Part shown: positions 18,364 to 32,477 of the stretch, in pieces | Layout: every line of letters starts with the position of its first letter | Position numbering within the stretch: position 1 is the stretch's first letter | Assembly: GCF_018448905.1 (NCBI RefSeq) | Contig: NZ_RCWA01000031.1 | Coordinates: 1-32,477 of the forward strand | Direction of reading: 5' to 3' | Length of the DNA stretch: 32,477 nucleotides | Source: Photorhabdus heterorhabditis | GTDB lineage: Bacteria; Pseudomonadota; Gammaproteobacteria; Enterobacterales; Enterobacteriaceae | Position numbers and translations under genes: made by a program | Notes under the pieces: model-generated | The model's database searches: none | The model's input: only the letters and a program-made list of their open reading frames with translations | Told to the model about the DNA's origin: nothing

Positions 18364-19371
<1,008 letters not shown>

Positions 19372-19406
19372 TAAATAAGTTGCACTCATATATCGCTATT
19401 TAAGAA

Positions 19407-19441
19407 AAAACCCGTTGTACAAGAGCTTCAACGGGTTTTCT
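19407..19441 (+). terminator. Rho-independent terminator of prs
   Basis: 11-bp stem (19407-19417 with 19429-19439) with an 11-base loop, a GC-rich middle, an A run before and TTTTC after; it lies about 36 bases after the prs stop codon. The flanking A and T runs could let it act on both strands. Confidence 0.85.
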
Positions 19442-19481
19442 GCTGACTCTGGAATAGTAATACTTCTCCATTAGCACAAAC

Positions 19482-19608
19482 TATACCCGTCATCTTTCAA
19501 GTTGCCTCTTTGTTGGCTGCACTCGCTCACCCCAGTCACCTAGTTATCTATGCTCCCGGGGATTCACTCCCTTGCCGTCGAGATGCGTCTTGAAATCCAT
19601 AGGGTATA
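19482..19608. repeat. Full-length ERIC element after prs
   Basis: 127 bp bounded by TATACCCGTCAT and ATAGGGTATA, with the conserved cores CGCTCACCCCAGTCAC and GCTCCCGGGGATTCAC. It lies between the prs terminator and the end of ychH. Confidence 0.93.
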
Positions 19609-19626
19609 TAACTAACTCTATTTTTG

Positions 19627-19902
19627 TTATGGATACCGATGACTACCACGACGATAACGCTCATCATAGTTTCTTAGCCACCAGTAACGATCTGCTACAC
19701 CTTCCCGACCGCCAACACCGGCACCAGCCAGCCAAACAAGAGCACCAATAAAGACCCCCAATAGCGCGGCTTCAGATAAAAACTCAGGCCAGCCAAGGCT
19801 GAAAATGTGGGGCAGTAATGTATAAACCAGACTACTCACTATAGTGAACATACCGATGCCCATTAATACATTACCCACTATGAAGGCACTTTGACGTTTC
19901 AT
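19627..19902 (-). CDS. ychH: YchH-family small membrane protein
   Basis: Inner-membrane protein of 91 aa related to E. coli YchH, a stress-induced protein of unknown mechanism. Two hydrophobic helices are visible (about 8-30 and 38-62). They are followed by the family's basic C-terminus GGREGVADRYWWLRNYDERYRR; E. coli YchH ends with a very similar motif. AGGTAACAT precedes the ATG. As in E. coli it lies near prs. It is the last core gene before the accessory cluster and is enclosed by ERIC elements. Confidence 0.88.
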   Translation of the reverse strand: MKRQSAFIVGNVLMGIGMFTIVSSLVYTLLPHIFSLGWPEFLSEAALLGVFIGALVWLAGAGVGGREGVADRYWWLRNYDERYRRGSHRYP

Positions 19903-20083: not shown

Positions 20084-20286
20084 GATAGTATAGCCCTATT
20101 TGGTAAAAGGTCATTGCGGGTACGATCACAACTAAAGGAGATTTAATAGCCACCCCCTAATCATTATAAGAAATAACATGAAAAAATAATGAATTGAGTA
20201 ACCTGAACTTCACTCAAAGTGACACTCAGGTTTTTAACTAAATATTGATGTATAACAATGATAGTTGTGAAATTCCATCCAAGTTA

Positions 20287-20413
20287 TATATCCGTCATCT
20301 TTCAAGTTACCTCTTTGTTGGCTGCATTCACTTACCCCAGTCACATCGTTATCTATGCTCCTGGGGATGCGTTCACTTGCCGCCGCGCTGCAATTTGAAA
20401 TCTATTGGGTATA
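20287..20413. repeat. Full-length ERIC element
   Basis: 127 bp from TATATCCGTCATC to ATTGGGTATA, with cores CACTTACCCCAGTCAC and GCTCCTGGGGATGCG. It lies in the spacer between ychH and the accessory cluster. Apart from this and the deletion derivative, 19903-20566 holds no gene that I can support. Confidence 0.92.
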
Positions 20414-20566
20414 TATATCTTCAATCAGTGCTTCTTATCGAGATAATAAAAATCGTCTTATTTTCAAACTGTATGATAACGGCTAAAAATAGGGGGATTT
20501 CTCCAATTTTTCAATAAGTAATCATACAATCAGCATCCCCCCCAAATATCCAGAGCCTACTAGTGA

Positions 20567-21532
20567 CTAACATAGCCCTGGGGTTAACGTTATCCACGTT
20601 TGATAATACATCAGTCCATCTATACAACTTATACCAACAGATGAAAATTTACTCATAGGAATATGATGATGAGGCGAACACTCTTGAGCATAAGTAGAAT
20701 AAACACTAAAGCTAAAATATCCATTTTTATCGGTAGTCATATTTTTGTCTTCATCACTCACTGACAGATAAGATCCCGTAGATACTGCCATGGTTACATT
20801 AGGTTCACCTATACCATTCTTATATAAATATCCAGTTATAATACCGCTCGAAAATGAATACAACTCAGACGGAGATTTTGTGATCTTTAACTGATATGGA
20901 TTATATGTGAAATCCACAGCTATACCCTTTATAATATTTCCCACTTGTGCTATTAGTATCAACCTGCCATCGCTATCAGATTGTATTGAAACCGTTATTT
21001 TACCATCTTTATCTGTTATACCCGACGATGGAAATACCTTTCCCCCAATATCTGCCTCAAAGGTTATTTCTTGGCCTTTAATTCCTTTACCAAACTGATC
21101 ATACACAGTTGCAACTACGATATTCTCATCGGTACTATTAGCCCATACATTATTTTTTTCTCGGTCAAGATTAATACCTGTCACACATTGAGGGACAGCA
21201 GTAAACTCTATCTGGAGAGGAGAGGCTTTTATTTGAGTATCACCGTCCAAACAGGCATCTACATTTCCTTGACACGGAGTTGAACCAACAGAGATAATTT
21301 CAACTGATGCTTCACCCATTACTCCTGTATTTTTTGTAATTTTACGCTCATTATTTTCTTTAAATACCATAGATTCATTATCTAATGTTAAAATTATATT
21401 CATCCCATGCAATAAATAACCATCTTGAATTACGTTTATACCAACATATATAGGCTTATCCGCAATTTCTATTTTTTTACTTGATACCCAACTTAATGTT
21501 TTAGCATCTTTTGGTGCTTGTTCATCATTCAT
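20567..21532 (-). CDS. Ig-like (invasin Big_1-type) protein without secretion signal
   Basis: Protein of 321 aa built of beta-sandwich-like domains. Residues 105-212 have the Big_1 pattern of invasins/intimins: WANSTDENIVVATVYDQFGKGIKGQ, then TDKDGKITVSIQSDSDG and IAQVGN. Residues 12-105 and 213-321 look like further Ig-like units (VMGEASVEI; TTDKNGYFSFSVYS). The C-terminal part has cysteines and ends in Cys. There is no signal peptide, lipobox or membrane helix. AGGAGAATGAA before the ATG is a good ribosome-binding site. It follows the 441-aa gene by 99 bases in the same direction and is the last gene of the accessory cluster. Function unknown; it may act with the adhesin or be a detached adhesin module. 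Confidence 0.75.
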   Translation of the reverse strand: MNDEQAPKDAKTLSWVSSKKIEIADKPIYVGINVIQDGYLLHGMNIILTLDNESMVFKENNERKITKNTGVMGEASVEIISVGSTPCQGNVDACLDGDTQIKASPLQIEFTAVPQCVTGINLDREKNNVWANSTDENIVVATVYDQFGKGIKGQEITFEADIGGKVFPSSGITDKDGKITVSIQSDSDGRLILIAQVGNIIKGIAVDFTYNPYQLKITKSPSELYSFSSGIITGYLYKNGIGEPNVTMAVSTGSYLSVSDEDKNMTTDKNGYFSFSVYSTYAQECSPHHHIPMSKFSSVGISCIDGLMYYQTWITLTPGLC

Positions 21533-21631
21533 TTCATTCTCCTAATTTATCACTATTATGTATATATGTTATCATCGATTTAAAATTAAAAATAAAATGA
21601 TTTCAACTTGATAATAACAATATTCCTTACA

Positions 21632-22957
21632 CTAAATAGAAGGAAAATATTTAAAATTAATAGAAAATTGAATCGACTTATCAGTATCGGGTAAACTTAT
21701 TATCACATTATTTTTTTCTGCTTTAGTATTAGTTATATGGAAAGTTGTACAACCATCCTGACTAATTGCAACCTGCAACTCTCTCTCGTTATCACCAAAA
21801 CCTGAAATTATCGAGGAGCCATCAGTACGAACAAGTAATCTGTTGCCAGAATAGATAGTACGGTCCACAATCACATAACCACTACAAACACTCACGCCAT
21901 CAGCAGGTACTTCAGAGGTAAATGCATAAGCTTTGATAATATCTACTCCATCCCTCCACTCACTAAATATTGCCTGACCTACACCTGGTGTTATAGCCCC
22001 ATCCTCCGCAGAAACAGTACAGCGAAAACTACCCGTTGTCTCAGATTGCAAATGGAAATAAGCCAGCCCGAAACTATTGGGAGCAAACTGATATTTTGTA
22101 CCATCCCCTTCAATAATATTGCCCGACTCAACACTAGCCGATAACCTTTTTCCTGGTGGCCCATAAACCGCCACCAAATTTTTCGATTTTATTCTGGGAT
22201 ATTCATTAGATACTATCGGCGCACCTTCACTAATTGATATTATGACAGATGACATATCCATTAGTGACAATATCACTGAACCTGGAGCAGAAATAGCATT
22301 ACCAACCTCATAATACCCGGTTCCCACTCCCTCTTGACCCAAACAAAGTACATTTTCCACCGGCACCACTAAAGAAACATAACCCTGCTTAACATCCTCA
22401 TCACTGACTGTTATTGGTTGTGCATCCCAAGCAGCCCTCACAATCGGATCATAGTTAAAATTATGTCCTTGCCAGTGGAATATAACGCTATCGCCTTTCT
22501 GCATCTGCCTATAACTGATATGCACATTTAACCCATGATGTTGTACAAGAGATGAATAGTGAATAACGCCAGATGTTGCATCTGGATAAACTGATGGTAA
22601 TAATTTTATCGATGGCGAATTAATAATTTTAATAACAGCCGGCTTAGAGAAATTTTCATTCTCGAAATCATCCGCTGATGTATAAGTCACATTATAGCAA
22701 CCATCTGGTATTTCAGAGAACGGCATAATTACAGTAAAAAAATCAAGATTAATATTCTGAACATAATAGGGGCGAGAAAAAATTCCCCCAACACTGACCA
22801 CGATCACATCCCAGGTTTCTATATCCTCATAATAAGGTACTTTGATAATTAAATCTTGGTTCTGTTGAACAGAAACATCAATCAAGCCATCATTATCTGC
22901 TTGCGGCAATTTTGGCGACGATAAAGGAATAAGTGTATTGTCGTGATTGGTAATCAT
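21632..22957 (-). CDS. Multi-module beta-sandwich protein, 441 aa, unknown function
   Basis: Three parts are visible. Residues 8-112 (SSPKLPQADNDG, IIKVPYYEDIETWDVIVVSV) and 113-235 (VHISYRQMQKGDSVIFHWQG, ITVSDEDVKQGYVSLVVPV) resemble Ig-like modules with a G-D-x-V strand followed by a conserved 'ITVSxxDV..G' strand, seen in many large bacterial surface proteins. Residues 236-441 form a domain shared with the 228-aa protein encoded just before it: SSVII, YPRIKSKNLVAVYGPPGK, VPADG..CSGYVIVDR. No signal peptide or membrane helix. The ATG overlaps the upstream gene's stop (ATGA) and has the strong site GGGAGGTGA, so the two are cotranslated. Not recognised as a named family. Confidence 0.75.
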   Translation of the reverse strand: MITNHDNTLIPLSSPKLPQADNDGLIDVSVQQNQDLIIKVPYYEDIETWDVIVVSVGGIFSRPYYVQNINLDFFTVIMPFSEIPDGCYNVTYTSADDFENENFSKPAVIKIINSPSIKLLPSVYPDATSGVIHYSSLVQHHGLNVHISYRQMQKGDSVIFHWQGHNFNYDPIVRAAWDAQPITVSDEDVKQGYVSLVVPVENVLCLGQEGVGTGYYEVGNAISAPGSVILSLMDMSSVIISISEGAPIVSNEYPRIKSKNLVAVYGPPGKRLSASVESGNIIEGDGTKYQFAPNSFGLAYFHLQSETTGSFRCTVSAEDGAITPGVGQAIFSEWRDGVDIIKAYAFTSEVPADGVSVCSGYVIVDRTIYSGNRLLVRTDGSSIISGFGDNERELQVAISQDGCTTFHITNTKAEKNNVIISLPDTDKSIQFSINFKYFPSI

Positions 22958-23640
22958 ATTTCACCTCCCATTGGAATCGGTCTAAACGATAAAACAAAAT
23001 TGACTGTATCCCCTGAATCTGAATCAGGTGCTGTTAGCCAAACATTAACTTTACCTACTGTATTGCTAGTCACATTCACTGTCGCACTGCCATCCTCCTT
23101 TAATGGAATATCTGCCCAGTCTTTATTATAACCCTCAATGACTGCATTATTATTCACTCTTATACGGATTTGATTAATATCATCATTATTTTCGCGATCA
23201 ATAAAAAGATATATCGAGCAAGGCGTCCTCCCATCTGCCGGAGCACCTGTGGTATAATTATAGGCGGTAAATACTATAGCTTCATCAGACTGACGATAAT
23301 TACCAAAAATAAGCGGGAAAGATATTACCTTATTCATATCCTCTTGTGGGGAAATCATCACAAAAGCCGAAAACTCTTCGCTATTTTCAATATTTTTATG
23401 TTCAAACGGAGAACGAACATAAAAATGTCCTGCTCCAGTCTCATCTAACGTCAATGTGATCTGATCCACATCAATATTATCATCTACAATAGAAGCACCG
23501 ATAGATGTCGTAGCATAGAATTTATATCCAGGTAGACCATATAGAGTCACAATATTTTTGGGATTAAGATTAGGGTAACCGGTTAAATCACTTATCGCCG
23601 CGTTTTCTGTGATAATCACACTTGAGATGCCGTTATTCAT
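22954..23640 (-). CDS. Stand-alone paralogue of the 441-aa protein's C-terminal domain
   Basis: 228-aa protein whose whole length aligns with residues 236-441 of the next gene: SSVIITENA, YPNLNPKNIVTLYGLPGYK, GAPADGRTPCSIYLFIDR and VNFVLSFRPIP correspond in order. It is cytosolic-looking, with no secretion signal. GGTG before ATG 23640 is a plausible ribosome-binding site. The end overlaps the 441-aa gene by four bases. A decayed copy of its 5' end and upstream flank lies at 27276-27520. Function unknown. Confidence 0.75.
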   Translation of the reverse strand: MNNGISSVIITENAAISDLTGYPNLNPKNIVTLYGLPGYKFYATTSIGASIVDDNIDVDQITLTLDETGAGHFYVRSPFEHKNIENSEEFSAFVMISPQEDMNKVISFPLIFGNYRQSDEAIVFTAYNYTTGAPADGRTPCSIYLFIDRENNDDINQIRIRVNNNAVIEGYNKDWADIPLKEDGSATVNVTSNTVGKVNVWLTAPDSDSGDTVNFVLSFRPIPMGGEI

Positions 23641-23760
23641 ATTGTCACCATTAACTCCATGATTTATTAATTGAAAATAAAATAATAACGTTTAAGAAAA
23701 TATTGTAGTTACGCAATAAATAAATCGCCAGTTCACAAACAAAGAATATGGCTAGAAGAA

Positions 23761-23784
23761 TGGAAAACGCTCACACATTTCCCA
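23761..23784 (-). terminator. Terminator-like hairpin after paralogue A
   Basis: On the minus strand a 10-bp stem (several G-T pairs) with loop GTGA is followed by TTCTTCT. It occupies the same place as the clearer hairpins after paralogues B and C, about 30 bases past the stop codon. Confidence 0.5.
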
Positions 23785-23813
23785 TAAACAAATAAAAGCT
23801 CAATCAGTTAAAT

Positions 23814-25316
23814 TTATTGTCCAGGTGGAACCGTGTCAATACGTCCAAACCAAATCTTGGAACTCTTTATATTTACGCTATAAGTGACATAAACTAATCC
23901 CGGTCCATCACGATATGAGTCTACACCTGTAAAAGGTGCCTGACCTAATAGAATAATAGCCTCTCCTGCCGCCACTTCATCGGCAGTTACCGTATGAGGT
24001 TCAAGAGAATAAATTTTTGAAGATGGACTATGATTGACAACACCATTAACGTAAATGCGTACATTAATAACACTATCCACATCTATTCCATTGTTTTTAC
24101 CCACAGCAATATGCGCATCTAGCCCTCCACCTAAAATTTTTGCACGATTGATCTTACCTCGCTGTTTAAGTTCACTCTGATCTTTATGAGTGAAAATTCT
24201 AGGTGCCGCTAATGTACGCCTAATCTCTGGTGGTTGATTTGGTACTGACCTCGTTAAATAAAAATAGAGGGAAGATGATATAGCTACGTTTCCCATTGTA
24301 TCAGCCACATAATAGTATAATTCATTATCGCCAATATTTGGAATACTGGCATATGGAGCTGAAATAAATGGTATATCTAACTGATTCAGATCAGTAATGA
24401 CAGTAGATGTACTTTGTATTTCATCATTATCGTCCCTGATCATTAAGAAGATTCTATCTTTCGGTTTAGCACCTTCATAAAATGGGATACTCACATGAAA
24501 ACCCGTGCTACTATTTTCTACTGATGGTATTAATCTATCGCCATCTAACTCTTTAATATCTGGCGTTGCCAGCGTTGGAGCAATATCCTCTGTAATAAAC
24601 AGAATATTTGACGAAGATTTCCTTGAAAAACCCTGCAACTCTGTAAACATATTAACTGTATAGTTACCTCCCTCTCCCTTACTAGGAAAAACTCTTAAGG
24701 CAGCAAAACCTTTACTATCCGTATTAATATAGTATTTACTATTACTGAGTTCTTGAATAAAAGGAAATATTTCTTCCGTAAGTTTCCTTCCCTCATAACC
24801 AAAAATACGTACCATCCTATCAGTTACCAAGGGAATTTGAAAATAAGGCAACGGATCATCTGTTTTATTCAGCGCATAGATATTAACAACGAGGCTGCCG
24901 TTAAACTCAGAAGGTTGCTCATCATCCGCTACCGGAGATAAGTCTTTTACCAACGAATCGCCAATAATCATAGGTTCAAACGCTGCATGTGAAAAACCAT
25001 TTTTATCAATAGGATGAAATGCTATCTCTAATTTAGCATCAAGGTCCGTAGTCTTATCCATTGAAAATATTATGGTAAAATCACCGGCACCAGAATGAGC
25101 AGTAACAACAAACTTTGCAGTGCAGATATTATTCTTGACATCCCTTGCAATACGAGAGATTTCATCAAAACTGACATCTTGCTGGTCACTGTACACTATA
25201 TCAGTCGTTTCTGTTACTTTATGAATCTCATCACCTGAATAAGTCACAGTAATAACAACTGGGCACTCTTCTAAAACCGTTATTCCTGAAACAATATCTG
25301 CTGTAAGTATCGACAT
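23814..25316 (-). CDS. 500-aa tandem paralogue A, Ig-like modules, unknown function
   Basis: First (leftmost) of three close paralogues. Layout: N-terminal beta-rich domain 1-125 (ITVLEECPVVITVTYSGDE, NGFSHAAFEPMIIGDSLVKDLSP); middle domain 140-245; an Ig-like module 252-355 (FHVSIPFYEGAKPKDRIFLMIRD, YYYVADTMGNVA); and a second module 366-495 (SVINVRIYVNGVV, HTVTADEVAAGEAI). The last two resemble the first two modules of the 441-aa protein. No signal peptide, lipobox or membrane segment. The frame opens at 25346, but I place the start at MSILTAD because ATGAGG lies six bases before it and the paralogues agree from there. It is followed by its own terminator-like hairpin and then the 228-aa gene. 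No named family recognised. Confidence 0.8.
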   Translation of the reverse strand: MSILTADIVSGITVLEECPVVITVTYSGDEIHKVTETTDIVYSDQQDVSFDEISRIARDVKNNICTAKFVVTAHSGAGDFTIIFSMDKTTDLDAKLEIAFHPIDKNGFSHAAFEPMIIGDSLVKDLSPVADDEQPSEFNGSLVVNIYALNKTDDPLPYFQIPLVTDRMVRIFGYEGRKLTEEIFPFIQELSNSKYYINTDSKGFAALRVFPSKGEGGNYTVNMFTELQGFSRKSSSNILFITEDIAPTLATPDIKELDGDRLIPSVENSSTGFHVSIPFYEGAKPKDRIFLMIRDDNDEIQSTSTVITDLNQLDIPFISAPYASIPNIGDNELYYYVADTMGNVAISSSLYFYLTRSVPNQPPEIRRTLAAPRIFTHKDQSELKQRGKINRAKILGGGLDAHIAVGKNNGIDVDSVINVRIYVNGVVNHSPSSKIYSLEPHTVTADEVAAGEAIILLGQAPFTGVDSYRDGPGLVYVTYSVNIKSSKIWFGRIDTVPPGQ

Positions 25317-25403
25317 ATTAAACCTCATATTAAAGTTAAACACCAAATAATATAGCTCGGCAATAAAGAAATATTTAGTTCACAAAACAAGCAACATGTC
25401 CGG

Positions 25404-25431
25404 AAAAATGGAAAACGCCTACGCATTTTCC
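25404..25431 (-). terminator. Rho-independent terminator after paralogue B
   Basis: Minus strand: 9-bp stem (25423-25431 with 25410-25418, one G-T pair), 4-base loop, then ATTTTTCC. It lies about 30 bases after the stop codon. Confidence 0.65.
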
Positions 25432-25461
25432 ATAAACAGGTAAAAGCTCAATCAGTTAAAT

Positions 25462-26970
25462 TTATTGCCCAGATGGAACAGTATTAATATGTCCAAACCA
25501 AATCTTAGACTCTTTTTTGTCTACGCTATAAGTGATATAAACCGAGCCTGGCGTACCATCACGATATGAATCTACACGAGTAAAAGGCGCCTGACCAAGC
25601 GGAATAATAGCCTCCCCAGCAGCCACTTCATCGGCAGTTACCGTATGAGGATCAAGAGAATAAAGTCGTGAGGACGGGTTATCATTTACAATACCATTAA
25701 CGTAAATACGTACATTAATAACACTATCCACATCTATTCCATTGTTTTGACCCACAGCAATATGGGCATTCAACCCTCCTCCTAAAATATTTTCAAGATT
25801 GATCCTACCTGACTGTTTAAATTCCAACTGCTGTTTATGAGCAAAGATTCTGGGTACTGCTAATGTCCGCTTAACTTCTGGTGGTTCATTCGGTACTGAC
25901 CCTGTTAAATTAAAATAGAGGGCAGAAGACATAGCTATATTTCCCACTACATCAGCCACATAATAACATAATTCATTGTCGCCAATATTTGGAACGCTGG
26001 CATATGGAACTAAAATAAATGGATTATCCAGCTGATTCAGATCAGTAATTACAGCAGACGCACTTAGCGTTTCGTCATTATCTTCTCTAATTACTAAAAA
26101 AATCCTATCTCTCGGTTTAGCACCTTTATAAAATGGGATACTCACATGAAACCCCGTGCTACTATTTCCTACTGATGGAGTTAATCTATTATTTCCATCC
26201 AGCTCTTCAATATCTGGCGCAGGAAGCGCTGGAGCAGTGTCTTCTATAATAAACAGAATATTTGATGAAGCGTTCTTTAAAAAACCCGGCAATTCTATGA
26301 ACATATCAACGGTATAATTACCACTCTTCTCCTTACGAGGGAAAACCCTTAAAGCAACAAAACCTTTATCATCTGTATTAATATAGTATTTATTATTATT
26401 GTAATGTAGAGCAAGAGGCAATATTTCTTCCGTAATATTTTCTCCATCATACCCAAAAACCCGCACTAAATTATCAATTACCAGAGGGATTTGAAAATAG
26501 GGTAACGGCTCATTTGTTTTACTCAACGCATAGATATTAATAAGCAGGCTACCATTCAATTCAGAAGGTCGTTCATCATCAGCTGCCGGAGATAAATCTT
26601 TTACCAACGAATCACCAATAATGATAGGTTCAAACGCTGCATGTGAAAAACCATTTTTATCAATAGAATGAAATGCAATCTCCAATTCAGCATCAGGGTC
26701 CGTAGCCTTATCCATTGAAAATACTATGGTGAAATCACCAACGTCAGAACCAGCAGTAACAACAAATTTTGCAGTACAGGTATTATTCTCGACATCTCTT
26801 GAAATACGAGGGGTCTTATCAAAACGGGTATTTTCTGGGTGACTGTACATTATGTCAGTCGTTTCCGTTACTTTATGTGTATCATCACCTGAATAAGTCA
26901 CAGTGATAACAACTGGGCACGCTTCTAAAACCGTTATTCCTGAAACGATATCTGTTGTAAGTGTCGACAT
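25462..26970 (-). CDS. 502-aa tandem paralogue B, Ig-like modules, unknown function
   Basis: Second of the three paralogues, with the same four-part layout as A. Differences from A are scattered substitutions, mostly in loops (YSHPENTRFDKTPR near residue 42; LALHYNNNKYYIN near 187), plus a two-residue length difference. The intact frame and conserved blocks (GFSHAAFEPIIIGDSLVKDLSPAADDE, NNGIDVDSVINVRIYVNGIVN) suggest it is or was recently functional. Start MSTLTTD is set by ATGAGG before the ATG. Its leader is interrupted by an ERIC element 28 bases upstream of the start codon, so its expression may differ from the other copies. Confidence 0.8.
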   Translation of the reverse strand: MSTLTTDIVSGITVLEACPVVITVTYSGDDTHKVTETTDIMYSHPENTRFDKTPRISRDVENNTCTAKFVVTAGSDVGDFTIVFSMDKATDPDAELEIAFHSIDKNGFSHAAFEPIIIGDSLVKDLSPAADDERPSELNGSLLINIYALSKTNEPLPYFQIPLVIDNLVRVFGYDGENITEEILPLALHYNNNKYYINTDDKGFVALRVFPRKEKSGNYTVDMFIELPGFLKNASSNILFIIEDTAPALPAPDIEELDGNNRLTPSVGNSSTGFHVSIPFYKGAKPRDRIFLVIREDNDETLSASAVITDLNQLDNPFILVPYASVPNIGDNELCYYVADVVGNIAMSSALYFNLTGSVPNEPPEVKRTLAVPRIFAHKQQLEFKQSGRINLENILGGGLNAHIAVGQNNGIDVDSVINVRIYVNGIVNDNPSSRLYSLDPHTVTADEVAAGEAIIPLGQAPFTRVDSYRDGTPGSVYITYSVDKKESKIWFGHINTVPSGQ

Positions 26971-27271
26971 ATGAAACCTCATATTAAAGTTAAACGCCTA
27001 TACCCGTTATCTTTCAAGTTGCTTCTTTGTTAGCTGCTCTCGCTCACCCCGGTCACATAGTTTGCTATGCTCCCGGGGATTCACTCCCTTGCCGCCGCGA
27101 TGCATCTTAAAATCCATAGGGTATATAAGTAACAAACACTTAATTTTCTGTCAAAATAATGCGTTTACACAACGATGCTTACTATTTATTACCCTATTAT
27201 CTCCTTCCTGTTTGTCACACAAACAAATATTTACTTTAGCTATTAATGTAATAGCAATAAACCCACTATTC
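26971..27271 (-). repeat. Duplicated leader of paralogue B with adhesin-tail remnant, split by an ERIC
   Basis: 26971-26998 and 27126-27271 together repeat the stretch found upstream of paralogue C (29058-29217) and between the adhesin stop codon and the decayed copy (29755-29858). The part 27217-27271 reads on the minus strand as SGFIAITLIAKVN. This corresponds to GGFVAVMVTAKVN inside the adhesin, fused directly to the bases around the adhesin's stop codon. It is a relic of a copied adhesin 3' end with an internal deletion. Confidence 0.7.
26999..27125. repeat. Full-length ERIC element in the leader of paralogue B
   Basis: 127 bp from TATACCCGTTATC to ATAGGGTATA, with cores CGCTCACCCCGGTCAC and GCTCCCGGGGATTCAC. 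The paralogous leaders at 29058 and 29755 lack it and show the uninterrupted sequence (..AACACCAATCAGTAACAAAC). Confidence 0.93.
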
Positions 27272-27275
27272 ATAA

Positions 27276-27378
27276 CATAAGCTTTATATCCAAATATATC
27301 CTATATGGTCACAATATATCTGGGGCTAAAACTACGATAATTGTTACATCACTTTTCGCCATATTGACCATTATTCAT
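27276..27378 (-). pseudogene. Decayed 5' end of a 228-aa-type gene
   Basis: From ATG 27378 the minus strand matches the start of the 228-aa gene (ATGAATAA.GG; ATATTGTGAC.ATAT; GGATATAAA). It is shortened, frameshifted and stopped after about nine codons. The homology continues upstream of the ATG through 27379-27520, matching 23641-23784 in front of the intact gene. So paralogue C was once followed by a 228-aa-type gene, just as paralogue A still is. Confidence 0.7.
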
Positions 27379-27489
27379 ACTGCCACCATTAACTCCGTGA
27401 TTCATTGGTTGAAAGTAAAATGACAACGCTTAATAAAATATTATAGCTTGGTAATGAAGAATCGCCAGTTCATCAATAAGAAATATGTT

Positions 27490-27520
27490 CAGAAAAGTGG
27501 AAAATGCGTGAGCATTTTCC
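27490..27520 (-). terminator. Rho-independent terminator after paralogue C
   Basis: Minus strand: perfect 9-bp stem (27512-27520 with 27499-27507), loop TCAC, then ACTTTTCTG. It is the best preserved of the three hairpins that follow the paralogues at the same distance. Confidence 0.7.
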
Positions 27521-27554
27521 AACAAACAGATAAAAGCTCAATCAGTTAAATTTA

Positions 27555-29057
27555 TTACCTAGGTGGAACAGTATCAATATGTCCAAACCAAATCTTAGAT
27601 TCGTTTTTGCCTACGCTGTAAGTGATATAAACCAAGCCTGGCGTACCATCATCATATGAATCTATATTAGTAAAAAACGCCTGACCAAGTGGAATAATAG
27701 TCTCTCCTGCCGCCACTTCGTCGGCAGTTACCGTATGAGGATCAATAGAATAAATTTTCGAAGATGGATTATCATTGATAATACCATTAACGTAAATACG
27801 TACATTAATGACATTATTTACCTCTATTCCACTGTTTTTACCCACAGCAATATGGGCATCCAACCCTCCACCTAAAATATACTTAAAACTAATCTTACCT
27901 GGCCAACTAAATTCCTTCTGTCGTTTATGATTAAAGATTCTAGGTCTCGCTAATATACGCTTAATCTCTGGTGGTATATTTGGTGTTGATCTCGTTAAAT
28001 TAAAATAGAGGGCAGATGACATAGTTATGTTTCCTATTACATCAGCTACGTAATAGTATAACCCATTATTGCCAATATTTGGAATACTGGCATATGGAAC
28101 TAAAATAGATGGGATATCCAACTGACTCAGATCAGTAATGACAGTGGACGCACTTGGCGTTTCATCATTATCTTCTCTGATCATTAAGAAAATTCTATCT
28201 CTTGGTTTAACACCTTCATAGAACGGGATACTCACATGAAAACCTGTATTGCTATATCCTGTTGATGGCGTTAATCTATCACCGTCCAGCTCTTCTATAT
28301 CTGGCATCACCAGCGCTGGAGCAATGTCTTCTGTAATAAACAGAATATTTGATGAAGATTTCCTTGAAAAACCCTGCAATTCAGTGAACATATTAACTGC
28401 ATAGTTCCCCTCTTCCTCCTGACTGGGAAAAATCTTTAAGGCAACAAAACCTTTATCATCTGTATTAATATAGTATTTATTATTATTCAGTTCTTGAATA
28501 AAAGGAAATATTTCTTCCGTAATTTTTTCCCTATCATACCTAAAAATACGTACTAATTTATCCGTTACCAGGGGAATTTGAAAATAGGGTAATGGATCAT
28601 TTGTTTTACTCAGAGCATATAGATTAACGAGGAGGTTACTATTAAAATCAGAAGGCTCCTCATTATCTGCTGCCGGAGATAAATCTTTTATCAGCGAATC
28701 ACCAATAATGATAGGTTCAAATGCTGCATGTGAAAAACCATTTTTATCAATAGAATGAAATGCAATTTCTAATTTAGCATCGGGGTCCGTAGCCTTATCC
28801 ACTGAAAATTCTATGGTAAAATCACCAGCGCCAGAAGCAGCAGTAACAACAAATTTCGCAGTGCAGGTATTTTTCTCAACATCTCTTGGAATACGAGGAA
28901 TTTTATCAAAATAGGTATTTTTGGGGGTACTGTGCACTATGCCAGTCGTTTCCGTTACTTTATGAGTATCATCACCTGAATAAGTCACTGTGATAACAAC
29001 TGGGCACGCTTCTAAAACCGTTATTCCTGAAACTATATCTGCGGTAAGTGTCGACAT
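27555..29057 (-). CDS. 500-aa tandem paralogue C, Ig-like modules, unknown function
   Basis: Third intact paralogue, same layout as A and B: N-terminal domain 1-125, middle domain 140-245, modules about 252-355 and 366-495. It shares with A the stretch FIQEL.N.KYYINTD and NMFTELQGFSRKSSSNILFITEDIAPAL, where B differs, so exchange between copies or a separate duplication order is possible. Its C-terminal linker (KEFSWPGKISFKYILGGG) is the most divergent part. Start MSTLTAD is preceded by ATGAGG. No secretion signal. It is preceded by a duplicated adhesin-tail/leader segment and followed by the decayed 228-aa-type gene. Confidence 0.8.
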   Translation of the reverse strand: MSTLTADIVSGITVLEACPVVITVTYSGDDTHKVTETTGIVHSTPKNTYFDKIPRIPRDVEKNTCTAKFVVTAASGAGDFTIEFSVDKATDPDAKLEIAFHSIDKNGFSHAAFEPIIIGDSLIKDLSPAADNEEPSDFNSNLLVNLYALSKTNDPLPYFQIPLVTDKLVRIFRYDREKITEEIFPFIQELNNNKYYINTDDKGFVALKIFPSQEEEGNYAVNMFTELQGFSRKSSSNILFITEDIAPALVMPDIEELDGDRLTPSTGYSNTGFHVSIPFYEGVKPRDRIFLMIREDNDETPSASTVITDLSQLDIPSILVPYASIPNIGNNGLYYYVADVIGNITMSSALYFNLTRSTPNIPPEIKRILARPRIFNHKRQKEFSWPGKISFKYILGGGLDAHIAVGKNSGIEVNNVINVRIYVNGIINDNPSSKIYSIDPHTVTADEVAAGETIIPLGQAFFTNIDSYDDGTPGLVYITYSVGKNESKIWFGHIDTVPPR

Positions 29058-29217
29058 ATTAAACCTCATATTAAAGTTAAACACCAATCAGTAACAAACA
29101 CTTAATTTTCTATCAAAATAATGCGTTTATACAACGATGCTTACTCTCTATTACCTCCTTCCTGTTTGTCACACAAATAAATTATTCACTTTAGCCATTA
29201 CTGTAATAGCAATATAT
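29058..29217 (-). repeat. Duplicated leader of paralogue C with adhesin-tail remnant
   Basis: 29058-29165 repeats the sequence between the adhesin gene's stop codon and the next start (29755-29858). 29169-29217 reads YIAITVMAKVNN on the minus strand, a relic of the adhesin's GGFVAVMVTAKVND, joined by a deletion to the stop-codon region. It probably carries the promoter of paralogue C, but I could not choose a convincing -35/-10 pair. Confidence 0.7.
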
Positions 29218-29754
29218 TCTTTATCCAAAAGATATCGTAAAATAGGATACGGTGCTTCCTCCTCACATTCAAAAAACTAAGTCGGAAACTATCAGCATAT
29301 GAGTCCATATATGAAAAAAGCGACTGACCAAGCTGAATAACACTTATTATAACCTCCGTATCTTCCTTAGATTCATGTATGAGGATCAATAGTAATAAAT
29401 ACTTAAATCTAACTCCTCTCCCATAATACCATCAGCGTAAACACTTACATCAATAACATCATCTACATTGATTTCAACTTCCAGCCCTACAACATAAGCA
29501 TCCAAGTCCCTTCCTTGAATAATCAAATAATTGATTTTCCCTCACTGTTCAAGTTCTAAATAATCTTGATGAGTAAAAATTCCAGCTACAGCTAATGTAC
29601 GAGAAACCTCTGTGATCGTTCATTAGGGACTGGATCGATTCAAATAACGAGAAGATAACATGGCTACATTTTCACTATAAGTAGCAGTAATGACAACTGA
29701 ACACTCTTCTAAAATCGTCATTCCTGAAATTATATCTGCTGTAAGTGCTAACAT
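29218..29754 (-). pseudogene. Decayed fourth copy of the 500-aa gene
   Basis: From ATG 29754 the frame reads LALTADIISGMTILEECSVVITATYS, like the other copies' N-terminus. It then jumps to ENVAMLSSRYLN, equivalent to about residue 342 (MGNVAISSSLYF), so some 310 codons are deleted. It stops soon after. Further left, pieces of the C-terminal module are still readable in shifted frames, for instance EVIISVIQLGQSLFSYMDSYAD against GETIIPLGQAFFTNIDSYDD. It is the copy closest to the adhesin gene. Confidence 0.85.
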
Positions 29755-29858
29755 ATTAAACTTCATATTAGAATTAAACACCAATCAGTAACAAACACCT
29801 AATTTTCTATCAAAATAGTGCGCTTCAACAATAATGCTCACTACCTATTATTTCCTTC
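29755..29858 (-). repeat. Adhesin downstream flank, ancestral leader of the 500-aa family
   Basis: Sequence between the adhesin stop codon and the decayed copy's ATG. It recurs in front of paralogues C and B, where it is attached to relics of the adhesin coding end. It therefore marks the original junction of adhesin and 500-aa gene. Confidence 0.7.
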
Positions 29859-32477
29859 CTACTCTTCACATAAAACTATATAAGCCACTGCATTTAGATC
29901 GTTATTATCCAGCAAATGAGCCTGAATTTCCTCTTGTCCTGCTACATACAACCCTCCCATTGTTATTTTGTTATTAACTAGCCCTGTAGTTGGATTACCT
30001 AACAAACCTTTTTTCAGAAGATTTAAATTCAAATCATTAACCAGATAATCAATTGAGCTACCAAGATCACTCTCCTTTATCCTATTTCCTCTTGTACAAC
30101 GAGGTAAAGGTTTACTCTTGTCAATACGACCCTCCGAGTAAGCGTAACCAATCCCCGGCCCTGTCGAGCTAGAACTATCAATAATTACAAAGTGGTTAAT
30201 TTTCACATCGGGAATAACATATTTTAAATACCGACCCGATTCTGGGTGTGTAAATGTCGCAGTTAATGTAACCGTTCCTGCTTTTTTAACTTGAAAATAA
30301 TGTCTATCCACATCAACTACGTTCCTATTACTTGAGTCATATACTCCAGTATAATCAGCTATAGTTGATTCTCCAGGCAAATACTCGGGTTCAAACCTCA
30401 TTTTTGGCCAAGCAAAATTCATTCTTTCTTTTGGAACCGAACGCCCGGGTCCTTTTCCATCTTTAGGGTGATAATCCACTATAAAGAAGTTAGCAACATC
30501 CTGCTCATTAGCCTTAATTTCCACTGTTTTATTCTTAGAACCAACAGATGAATCATTCACTTTAGCCGTTACCATAACAGCAACAAACCCGCCACTTTTA
30601 CTATATACCTGATATTGCGCTTTCCCATCAGCATCTGTTTTACCATCACCCACTACCTGAGTAACCAAGTTTTTATCAATAATGGTAACCCCCTCACTAT
30701 TTGTTGCACTCCAAGCCACCGCAACACCACTTTTAGCCTGCCCGGAAAAATCTTTTACTGTGGCAGTGAAGGTGTAAGTATGTTCCGCGCCTTCTCCTTC
30801 TGTTACGTGATCTGGACTAACAGTAAGAGAAGCAAGCTCATCAGGGCTGATAAAACTGACTTTTTTATCCGCATTCATTGGCGTCTGCTGGTTAGCCGTT
30901 TTTGCAGACACTTGTACATCAATCGCTACCACTGTACTGCTTAAGGTCACCGTTAGTTGACCCTGCGCGTTACTCACCGAATTGCTCTGTTTCGTCAGTT
31001 TTAACCCGTCAACTTTTGGGTCTGTCTGCCAGTCAATATTGATCGGTTGACCCACCACCAGATTGCCATGCCCATCTTTCACCGTCGCCGTGAAGGTATA
31101 ACTGTCCGTGCCGTTGTTGTAGCGCTTCCCGTCTTTATCCACATCCACCATCACGTCGGCGACATAATAGCTGCTGCTCAACTCCTCAAAGCTGACCTTT
31201 CGATCAGTCTCGACCCACGACGAGTTACCCGCCGTTTTCGCCGATACCTGCACATCAGATACCACCGCCGTGCTGGTTAAGGTCGCGGTGACCTGCCCCT
31301 GCGCGTTACTCACCAAATTGCCCTGTTTTGTCAGTTTTAACCCGTCAACTTTTGGGTCTGTCTGCCAGTCAATCTCGATCGGTTTATCCACCACCAGATT
31401 GCCATGCCCATCTTTCACCGTCGCCGTGAAGGTATAACTGTCGATACCGTTGTTGTAGCGCTTCCCGTCTTTATCCACATCCACCGCCACGCTGGCGACA
31501 TAATAGCTGCTGCTCAGCTCTGTAAAGCTGACTTTTCTATCCGCATTCACCGCCGCCGTTTGCTGGCTGGCCGTTTTCGCCGACACCTGCACATCCGTCA
31601 CCGCCGCCGTGCTGGTTAAGGTTGCGGTAACCTGCCCCTGCGCGTTACTCACCGAATTGCCCTGTTTCGTCAGTTTTAATCCGTCAACCGCTGGGTCTGT
31701 CTGCCAGTCAATATCGATCGACTGACCCACCACCAGATTGCCATGCCCATCTTTCACCGTCGCCGTGAAGGTATAACTGTCGATACCGTTGTTATAGTGC
31801 TTCCCGTCTTTATCCACATCCACCGTCACGCTGGCGACATAATAGCTGTCGCTCAGCGCCTCAAAACTGACTTTCCTATCCGCTTTCACCGCCGCCGTTT
31901 GCTGGCTGGCCGTTTTCGCCGACACCTGTACATCCGATACCACCGCCGTGCTGGTTAAGGTCGCGGTCACCTGTCCCTGCGCGTTACTCACCGAATGGCT
32001 TTGTTGAGTCAGTTTTAACCCGGCCTCCGCTGGGTCTGTCTGCCAGTCAATCTCGATCGGTTTATCCACCACCAGATTGCCATGCCCATCTTTCACCGTC
32101 GCCGTGAAGATATAACTGTCCGTGCCGTTGTTGTAGCGCTTCCCGTCTTTATCCACATCCACCGTCACGTCGGTGACTCGATAACTGCCGCTCAGCGCCT
32201 CAAAGCTGACTTTCCTATCCGCATTCACCGCCGCCGTTTGCTGGCTGGCCGTTTTCGCCGATACCTGTACATCCGTCACCGCCGCCGTGCTGGTTAAGGT
32301 CGCGGTGACCTGCCCCTGCGCATTACTCACCGAATTGCTCTGTTTCGTCAGTTTTAACCCGGCCACCGTTGAGTCTGTCTGCCAGTCAATCTCGATCGGT
32401 TTATCCACCACCAGATTGCCATGCCCATCTTTCACCGTCGCCGTGAAGGTATAACTGTCCGTGCCGTTGTTGTAGCG
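29859..32477 (-). CDS. Invasin/intimin-like adhesin with tandem Big_1 repeats (5' end outside the window)
   Basis: The frame is open to the right edge, so at least 872 C-terminal residues are present and the start is not. From the edge inward there are one partial and four complete, very similar repeats of 112-113 residues (DRKVSFEALS.SY.V..VTVDVDKDGK, ..VKDGHGNLVV, WQTDP, VSNAQGQVTATLTST). A divergent Big_1-type domain follows (ASLTVSPDHVTEGEG .. GKTDADGKAQYQVYSKSGGFVAV). A ~230-residue C-terminal region has two cysteines, PRCTRGN and VLCEE at the very end, as in the disulphide-closed tip domain of invasin/intimin-type proteins. Such proteins normally have an N-terminal signal and an inverse-autotransporter barrel that display the repeats on the cell surface. 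Those parts are not visible here, so the class is inferred from repeats and tip. Confidence 0.82.
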   Translation of the reverse strand, partial: RYNNGTDSYTFTATVKDGHGNLVVDKPIEIDWQTDSTVAGLKLTKQSNSVSNAQGQVTATLTSTAAVTDVQVSAKTASQQTAAVNADRKVSFEALSGSYRVTDVTVDVDKDGKRYNNGTDSYIFTATVKDGHGNLVVDKPIEIDWQTDPAEAGLKLTQQSHSVSNAQGQVTATLTSTAVVSDVQVSAKTASQQTAAVKADRKVSFEALSDSYYVASVTVDVDKDGKHYNNGIDSYTFTATVKDGHGNLVVGQSIDIDWQTDPAVDGLKLTKQGNSVSNAQGQVTATLTSTAAVTDVQVSAKTASQQTAAVNADRKVSFTELSSSYYVASVAVDVDKDGKRYNNGIDSYTFTATVKDGHGNLVVDKPIEIDWQTDPKVDGLKLTKQGNLVSNAQGQVTATLTSTAVVSDVQVSAKTAGNSSWVETDRKVSFEELSSSYYVADVMVDVDKDGKRYNNGTDSYTFTATVKDGHGNLVVGQPINIDWQTDPKVDGLKLTKQSNSVSNAQGQLTVTLSSTVVAIDVQVSAKTANQQTPMNADKKVSFISPDELASLTVSPDHVTEGEGAEHTYTFTATVKDFSGQAKSGVAVAWSATNSEGVTIIDKNLVTQVVGDGKTDADGKAQYQVYSKSGGFVAVMVTAKVNDSSVGSKNKTVEIKANEQDVANFFIVDYHPKDGKGPGRSVPKERMNFAWPKMRFEPEYLPGESTIADYTGVYDSSNRNVVDVDRHYFQVKKAGTVTLTATFTHPESGRYLKYVIPDVKINHFVIIDSSSSTGPGIGYAYSEGRIDKSKPLPRCTRGNRIKESDLGSSIDYLVNDLNLNLLKKGLLGNPTTGLVNNKITMGGLYVAGQEEIQAHLLDNNDLNAVAYIVLCEE
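30870..32477 (-). repeat. Tandem 336-339-bp repeats coding for Ig-like domains
   Basis: Units on the minus strand: 32220-32477 (partial), 31881-32219 (339), 31542-31880 (339), 31206-31541 (336) and 30870-31205 (336), each beginning at the Asp codon of DRKV(S). Long stretches are the same in all units, notably around VDKDGK and VKDGHGNLVV. Unit 31206-31541 ends in GNSSWVET instead of SQQTAAVNA. The array is prone to copy-number change by recombination and to assembly collapse. Confidence 0.92.

Follow-up and report, generated by a model that had tools for sequence, protein, structure and literature searches.

Immunoglobulin-like proteins without visible signals in tandem beside an inverse autotransporter of Photorhabdus heterorhabditis, candidate accessory partners of a type V adhesin

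What could a whole row of proteins made without any visible Sec signal be doing directly behind the gene of an invasin-like adhesin? The question is raised by the insect pathogen Photorhabdus heterorhabditis (GCF_018448905.1), in the 32,477 nucleotides of DNA that we analysed, positions 1-32,477 of contig NZ_RCWA01000031.1, called here the window. The series that the initial annotation had described there was found as stated, with one relic and six open frames all lying on the minus strand after the 3' part of an inverse autotransporter (IAT) adhesin gene, in the order relic, three paralogues of about 500 amino acids (aa), and then the 228-, 441- and 321-aa frames (510, 506, 510, 228, 441 and 321 aa in the open-frame list). 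Our best explanation of the whole, to which we give a probability of roughly 0.45, is that these are accessory immunoglobulin-like (Ig-like) partners of a type V adhesin, with a way out of the cell that does not use Sec and may be lysis.

From its sequence, the adhesin is classed as an inverse autotransporter (type Ve). A contig gap of 6 N at 32,478-32,483 falls inside its repeats and splits the gene at the window end, and the IAT beta-barrel (PF11924, IAT_beta) is found on the same contig, at 34,607-35,395, with an E value of 2.1e-107. The part of the gene within the window has six Big_1 stretches, with repeats of 336-339 bases, giving an Ig-like passenger. The hydrophobic N-terminus was read from a complete relative of the adhesin (L045), which also has nine Big_1 stretches and a barrel scoring 362.7 bits.

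Regarding the proteins that follow, the 321-aa protein carries the Big_1 domain (PF02369) that had been proposed for it, at 82.9 bits and above the curated cut-off of 34.9 bits, a cut-off missed by the 441-aa (17.4 bits) and 228-aa (19.0 bits) proteins, which do have a domain in common at 31% identity, also as initially noted. In Pfam the 500-aa family finds nothing at E values up to 1, and a search by sequence against solved structures returned nothing for the 500-aa or the 441/228 profiles. The structure prediction suggested in the initial annotation did find Ig-like domains when the predicted models were compared with known structures by VIA-align, in residues 3-109 of one 500-aa copy (f2) and in the C-terminal domain of the 441-aa protein, similar to the Ig domains of intimin and invasin, so that Ig-like folds can be predicted for the modelled proteins with low to moderate confidence. 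Three copies of about 500 aa are indeed present, but they are not near-identical as had been thought, because they share 75-78% protein identity with the middle copy and have synonymous divergences (dS) of 0.35-0.40 among themselves; cysteines 22 and 69 are kept in at least 90% of the family. The signal test was one of hydropathy, taken as the best 12-residue mean near the N-terminus and not a dedicated predictor, and by this measure no Sec signal is visible in any of the six partner proteins, whose first 40 residues reach 0.32-1.96 against 3.16 in the first 60 residues of the adhesin relative, in agreement with the earlier observation.

Outside Photorhabdus, relatives of these proteins lie mostly beside type V genes. 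Searched with a profile built from the 500-aa family and its relatives, 13 of 392 genomes of the bacterial family gave matches, with at most three candidates scored per genome, and so did 16 of 295 with the 441/228 profile, at most five being scored; the 25 non-Photorhabdus loci listed, from ten genus handles, were all examined. An IAT gene adjoins 17 of these 25 loci (L049, L096, L098-L103, L131, L148, L149, L157, L165-L168 and L173), the arrangement being same-strand, divergent or convergent, and in some cases with one to several genes intervening; at L099 the first stretch contained the adhesin C-terminus alone, and the barrel was then confirmed. A classical autotransporter adjoins four more (L051, L169, L171 and L104), neither type is found at three (L097, L170 and L172), and L178 lies at a contig edge. 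The IAT adjacency recurs in eight of the ten genus handles (g13, g65, g99, g101, g119, g124, g142 and g165), and at an assumed 5% per locus the probability of 17 in 24 would be about 2e-17, a figure for loci that are not independent, several of them coming from a common genus or site; chance is therefore no explanation, and nothing more is claimed from this number. The signal-less status is less clear for the 923-aa protein of L157 and the 332-aa protein of L167 because their starts are somewhat hydrophobic (2.6 and 2.3). Taken together, signal-less Ig-like genes stand beside type V adhesins in at least 11 genera of one bacterial family (g1, g13, g17, g49, g65, g99, g101, g119, g124, g142 and g165).

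Several of these neighbourhoods hold proteins of unusual make-up. At L149:13626-16772 (-) an IAT is adjoined by a signal-less protein of 1049 aa in which Big_1 is combined with a lipoxygenase domain, RCC1 repeats together with Big_1 occur near an inverse autotransporter at L167:9831-12194 (+), and RCC1 repeats occur near a classical autotransporter at L104:6591-11069 (-). Moreover, a small protein of 132-141 aa ends the signal-less Ig clusters of g13 (L169:4490-4888, L171:9767-10183, L049:2698-3120 and L051:605-1021), the L049 copy of which has no match in Pfam or PHROGs.

Within the genus, the comparison of the locus that had been called for found that the block is one inherited unit, present whole in 11 of 13 genomes and missing together from the other two, and this co-inheritance, with the adjacency to type V adhesins elsewhere, supports the early suggestion that the proteins are partners of the adhesin. 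Among 59 genomes, our own included, these 11 are joined by one more for the 500-aa family and by two more for the 441-aa protein. Searches of 34 genomes for the 321-aa protein and of 33 for the adhesin C-terminus again gave these 11, to which the 321-aa protein adds weak matches in three further genomes and the adhesin C-terminus adds none. At its 321-aa end the block adjoins the genes that we take to be ychH and prs in all 11 block-bearing genomes, and its adhesin end, seen in four loci (our own, L040, L042 and L046), adjoins a gene of 560-645 aa; in the two genomes without any part of the block (G006 and G011), ychH adjoins either this 560-645-aa gene and what is presumably pth, or pth. Judging from the gene order in G008, the block would correspond to plu2057-plu2064; plu2057 and plu2064 are named in the accessible part of PMC2266911, and a literature search for plu2057-2061 and plu2063 returned that paper alone, for plu2057.

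The family had also been described as expanding, and this was borne out in one sense and not in the other. Other species do hold more copies, since the intact 500-aa copies number three in five genomes, four in four, six in one and seven in one, with at least four in P. akhurstii, whose locus meets a contig end; in the tree, P. namnaonensis and P. caribbeanensis are the species with more copies. In the P. heterorhabditis lineage, on the other hand, f1, f2 and f3 are old orthologous groups, each clustering with the same-position copies of P. australis, P. noenieputensis, P. luminescens and G008 (supports 0.995, 1.0 and 1.0, with just 0.141 for a four-member f2 subclade), and the tree thus rules out a recent amplification in this strain. 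The decayed copy that had been noticed is confirmed as a relic, which is also old, because other genomes of the genus have relic matches at the same place, after the adhesin and ahead of the first intact copy.

Are these genes maintained? The ratio of nonsynonymous to synonymous divergence (dN/dS) was calculated by Nei-Gojobori as medians over 12 loci for pairs with dS above 0.05, and came to 0.23 for the 228-aa and 0.28 for the 441-aa protein (12 open genes each), to 0.40 with a maximum of 0.60 for the 500-aa family (48 open copies in 12 loci, 1128 pairs in all), and to 0.70 with a maximum of 1.27 for the 321-aa protein, in which pN/pS rises to 1.24 near residues 241-280. By these ratios the 228-, 441- and 500-aa families are clearly under purifying selection, and the 321-aa protein, the most variable of the four, is either weakly constrained or diversifying. 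Neutral decay, which had been named as an outcome that would overturn the initial proposal, is ruled out for the first three families by dN/dS, and selection for dose, which had been suggested as a reason for the duplications, is unlikely because the copies have diverged by about 25%. That the block is mere baggage of the lineage, made up of duplicates which now serve for little, is very improbable to us: the relic, the absence of the whole block from two of the 13 genomes and the ratio of the 321-aa protein would agree with it, but the 48 open 500-aa copies and the open 228- and 441-aa genes, 12 of each, with the low medians given above, disfavour it for three of the families.

The idea that these genes are spare or silent modules recombining into the adhesin, put forward in the initial annotation, fares worst of all, and we give it hardly any credence. 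The tandem locus is rich in repeats and the relic adjoins the adhesin 3' end, as such a store might, but the adhesin part and the array share just 13 bases of DNA (E 0.79), the profile of the 500-aa family does not match the adhesin C-terminus, the genes have starts with ribosome-binding sites, and dN/dS lies well below 1 in three of the four families. The profile of the 321-aa protein does match the adhesin C-terminus weakly (E 0.00026), as expected for Big_1. The reading was rejected on the comparisons of DNA and of profiles.

A more serious rival is that the proteins act inside the cell, for instance on the adhesin ahead of its export, as its holdases or regulators, and the lack of a visible signal, the strong constraint on the 228- and 441-aa proteins and the cysteines of the 441- and 321-aa proteins would agree with this. 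Nevertheless, we regard it as rather improbable, given that lipoxygenase (L149) and RCC1 (L167 and L104) domains in signal-less neighbours of type V adhesins would be odd for a chaperone, that Big_1 is a domain usually met in surface proteins, and that the 321-aa protein evolves fast.

How, then, could accessory partners of the adhesin get out? Export by another route, as initially envisaged, stays a live option if that route is not Sec. Tc toxin proteins are not known to carry signals. In Yersinia entomophaga, the release of large proteins through lysis of a subpopulation, or type 10 secretion, is described for the Tc toxin in the accessible parts of two papers (PMC10847048, PMC10101115). Lysis genes do occur in some related clusters: a phage lysozyme lies between two Ig genes without clear signal at L164, a holin and an M15 endolysin lie between two such genes at L167 (the holin under the Pfam cut-off, and at 6.7e-11 in PHROGs), and a lambda-S-type holin lies nearby at L171. 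The 332-aa protein of L167 has no relative in the other genome of its genus. As a general rule, a linkage to lysis found no support, the three related lysozymes examined, of 17 other matches of the L164 lysozyme in its genus, lying in other settings.

Contractile particles offer another connection, and with it the rival that the proteins belong, as cargo or as decoration, to contractile injection particles or to some other device of phage origin and are not partners of the adhesin. Two full-length homologues of the 321-aa protein (29-31% identity) lie in a PVC-type operon of P. namnaonensis (L052:5439-7577 (+)), between its tape-measure and AAA ATPase genes, and sheath and tube genes stand beside the IAT-plus-Ig cluster of L157. 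Against this, PVC-linked copies occur in that one genome and in no other of the 13 of the genus, and an IAT is the neighbour of 17 of the 25 relatives in other genera, and we consider the particle reading quite improbable.

For accessory partners of a type V adhesin, the following mechanism may be proposed. The inverse autotransporter would display its long Ig-like passenger, and the separate multi-domain Ig-like proteins would act with it outside the cell, where they might extend it, cap it or bind targets of their own. Being made without a Sec signal, they would most likely exit by a non-Sec route, perhaps through lysis of a subpopulation in the type 10 or contractile-particle manner, and the 500-aa copies kept diverged, together with the 321-aa protein as the most variable, would fit a diversification of binding. 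For the extracellular partnership taken separately we would put the odds at about even, and release by lysis, taken separately, is a distinctly more doubtful part of the proposal. An even more tentative generalisation, which we think unlikely as a whole, would make signal-less multi-domain Ig-like proteins a widespread client class of inverse and classical type V adhesins, stored in the cytosol, freed by the programmed lysis of some cells (with the lysis genes sometimes in the cluster) and captured by the neighbouring autotransporter on survivors or on the host, adhesion thus becoming a public good.

Several observations weigh against the reading that we prefer. Both the exit from the cell and the binding of the adhesin are what we infer for the partner proteins. 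The two structural models, of f2 and of the 441-aa protein, are weak (mean pLDDT 58.7 and 53.0), and the five cysteines of the 441-aa and six of the 321-aa protein are compatible with a cytosolic life. Looking from the side of the adhesins, at 59 IAT loci hand-picked among about 150 matches listed and mostly with frames above 730 aa, we found, no more than three genes away, a signal-less Ig neighbour at just seven (L124, L131, L148, L149, L157, L163 and L164) and one with a hydrophobic N-terminus at three (L110, L122 and L125), counts which leave out L150 with its masked neighbour and are lower bounds because only three profiles were used; the signal-less neighbour at L124 has 1206 aa and Big_1, and L124 was placed among the comparison loci in the later listing of small frames. 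The arrangement is thus a minority among IATs, even if the signal-less proteins themselves are mostly beside type V genes. As for lysis, four lysis queries match neither the window nor the genus loci searched, a search confined to these four queries and these stretches; lysis genes occur at just 2 to 3 of the 25 non-window loci with small genes listed; nine of the 115 small frames listed near Ig clusters were scanned, chosen by eye; and the lysozyme linkage of L164 is absent at the three next-best homologues (of 17 other matches) in its genus. A lysozyme homologue also appears at one of 53 comparison IAT loci, a comparison biased because the queries were the four lysis proteins of the positive loci. 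Finally, the accessible text of the Yersinia entomophaga papers (PMC10847048, PMC10101115) makes no mention of Ig-like, immunoglobulin or invasin proteins. With no lysis match at the genus loci, few frames scanned and the L164 linkage not repeated, release by lysis is therefore offered as a hypothesis.

If the association is functional, it would reveal an overlooked class of adhesin partners, of the kind that signal-peptide filters discard, and it would join two fields, those of type V adhesins and of lysis-based release, with the prediction that the proteins should be seen at the surface only under two conditions together, an open non-Sec route and a neighbouring autotransporter in place. The locus, found in most Photorhabdus species examined, would also be a candidate locus for attachment to insects or nematodes.

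Table 1. Coordinates of the adhesin part, its following genes and associated elements in the window
Feature	Position	Strand	Remarks
3' part of inverse-autotransporter (invasin-like) adhesin	29859..32477	-	Big_1 repeats and C-terminal domain; open at window end
500-aa family relic	29395..29766	-	residues 1-32 joined to 348-441, stops present
500-aa family copy f1	27555..29057	-	no visible signal
500-aa family copy f2	25462..26970	-	no visible signal; modelled copy, residues 3-109 predicted Ig-like
500-aa family copy f3	23814..25316	-	no visible signal
228-aa protein	22954..23640	-	lowest dN/dS among the four families; ATGA overlap with the next start (441-aa gene)
441-aa protein	21632..22957	-	modelled C-terminal domain similar to intimin/invasin Ig domains
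321-aa protein	20567..21532	-	Big_1 domain; fastest evolving; full-length homologues in P. namnaonensis PVC-type operon
Leader with GAGG and ATGTCG start, 5' of f1	29053..29082	-	conserved
Leader 5' of f2	26966..26995	-	as f1 leader, one mismatch
Leader 5' of f3	25312..25341	-	as f1 leader
Terminator-like hairpin 3' of f1	27498..27521	-	10 pairs, T-rich tail
Block edge: prs 18367-19371 (+), ychH-like gene 19627-19902 (-)	18367..19902		same edge at 11/11 genus loci

The leader shared by the three 500-aa copies (Table 1) occurs at three sites with at most one mismatch where none is expected, and in each of them GAGG stands six bases 5' of ATGTCG. It is this second ATG (at 29,057, 26,970 and 25,316) that is likely the start of f1, f2 and f3, because the upstream ATG is out of frame in some relatives, and it would give proteins of 500, 502 and 500 aa. 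The terminator scan as a whole was not above shuffled sequence (seven found, 5.7 expected), and the promoter scan was likewise no richer. A 136-base repeat, which we assume to be a dispersed element of the ERIC/MITE type from its resemblance, occurs in three copies that are 81-90% alike (19,481-19,616, 20,286-20,421 and 26,998-27,133), one of which directly precedes the f2 leader.

With respect to known systems, the initial view that no described system has such a layout does not hold, given that the Yfr4 operon (PMC3008723) and, from the accessible parts of their papers, ZirTS (PMC2270342) and SinHI and IatB (PMC6714894) precede it. In the operons of Yfr4 in Yersinia frederiksenii and Ahy1 in Aeromonas hydrophila, an IAT likewise precedes separate passenger-like proteins, for which the proposal is that they lengthen the passenger or supply it (Tsai et al. 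2010, PMC3008723), but all four proteins of the Yfr4 operon bear signal sequences (PMC3008723), as opposed to none of the six partners here by hydropathy. ZirTS(U) of Salmonella shares with our locus an IAT barrel gene adjoining genes for separate proteins, Ig-like in our case; what is accessible of the literature describes ZirT as a platform for ZirS and ZirU (PMC6714894), and ZirS as a protein with a Sec signal, encoded 26 bp downstream of zirT and dependent on ZirT for secretion (PMC2270342). Here, by comparison, there is no visible signal, there are several paralogues, and the adhesin is much larger. SinH/SinI and IatB/EcSMS35_2660, grouped as analogous to ZirTS in the accessible part of PMC6714894, also pair an IAT with a downstream barrel-less protein, with a single partner gene as far as that text goes versus the family found here.

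An outer-membrane barrel alone is not known to move proteins across the inner membrane. This speaks against a two-partner export of the ZirTS kind, in which the adhesin barrel would help the proteins through the envelope with the aid of a cryptic signal, and so do the Sec signals of ZirS and the four Yfr4-operon proteins; the requirement of an IAT-type barrel for ZirS secretion and the analogy extended to SinH/SinI and IatB argue for it, and on balance we find it improbable. Type 10 secretion resembles the present case through the lysis genes inside two related Ig clusters, which are not in the Photorhabdus locus, where no holin/endolysin cassette was matched by the four lysis queries. Type V adhesins with Ig partners that lack a signal were not found described in the accessible text of the papers cited here or among the open-licence papers listed. 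The locus is, in summary, a variant of the IAT-plus-partner arrangement, set apart from the known ones by its missing visible signal and by its tandem diversification.

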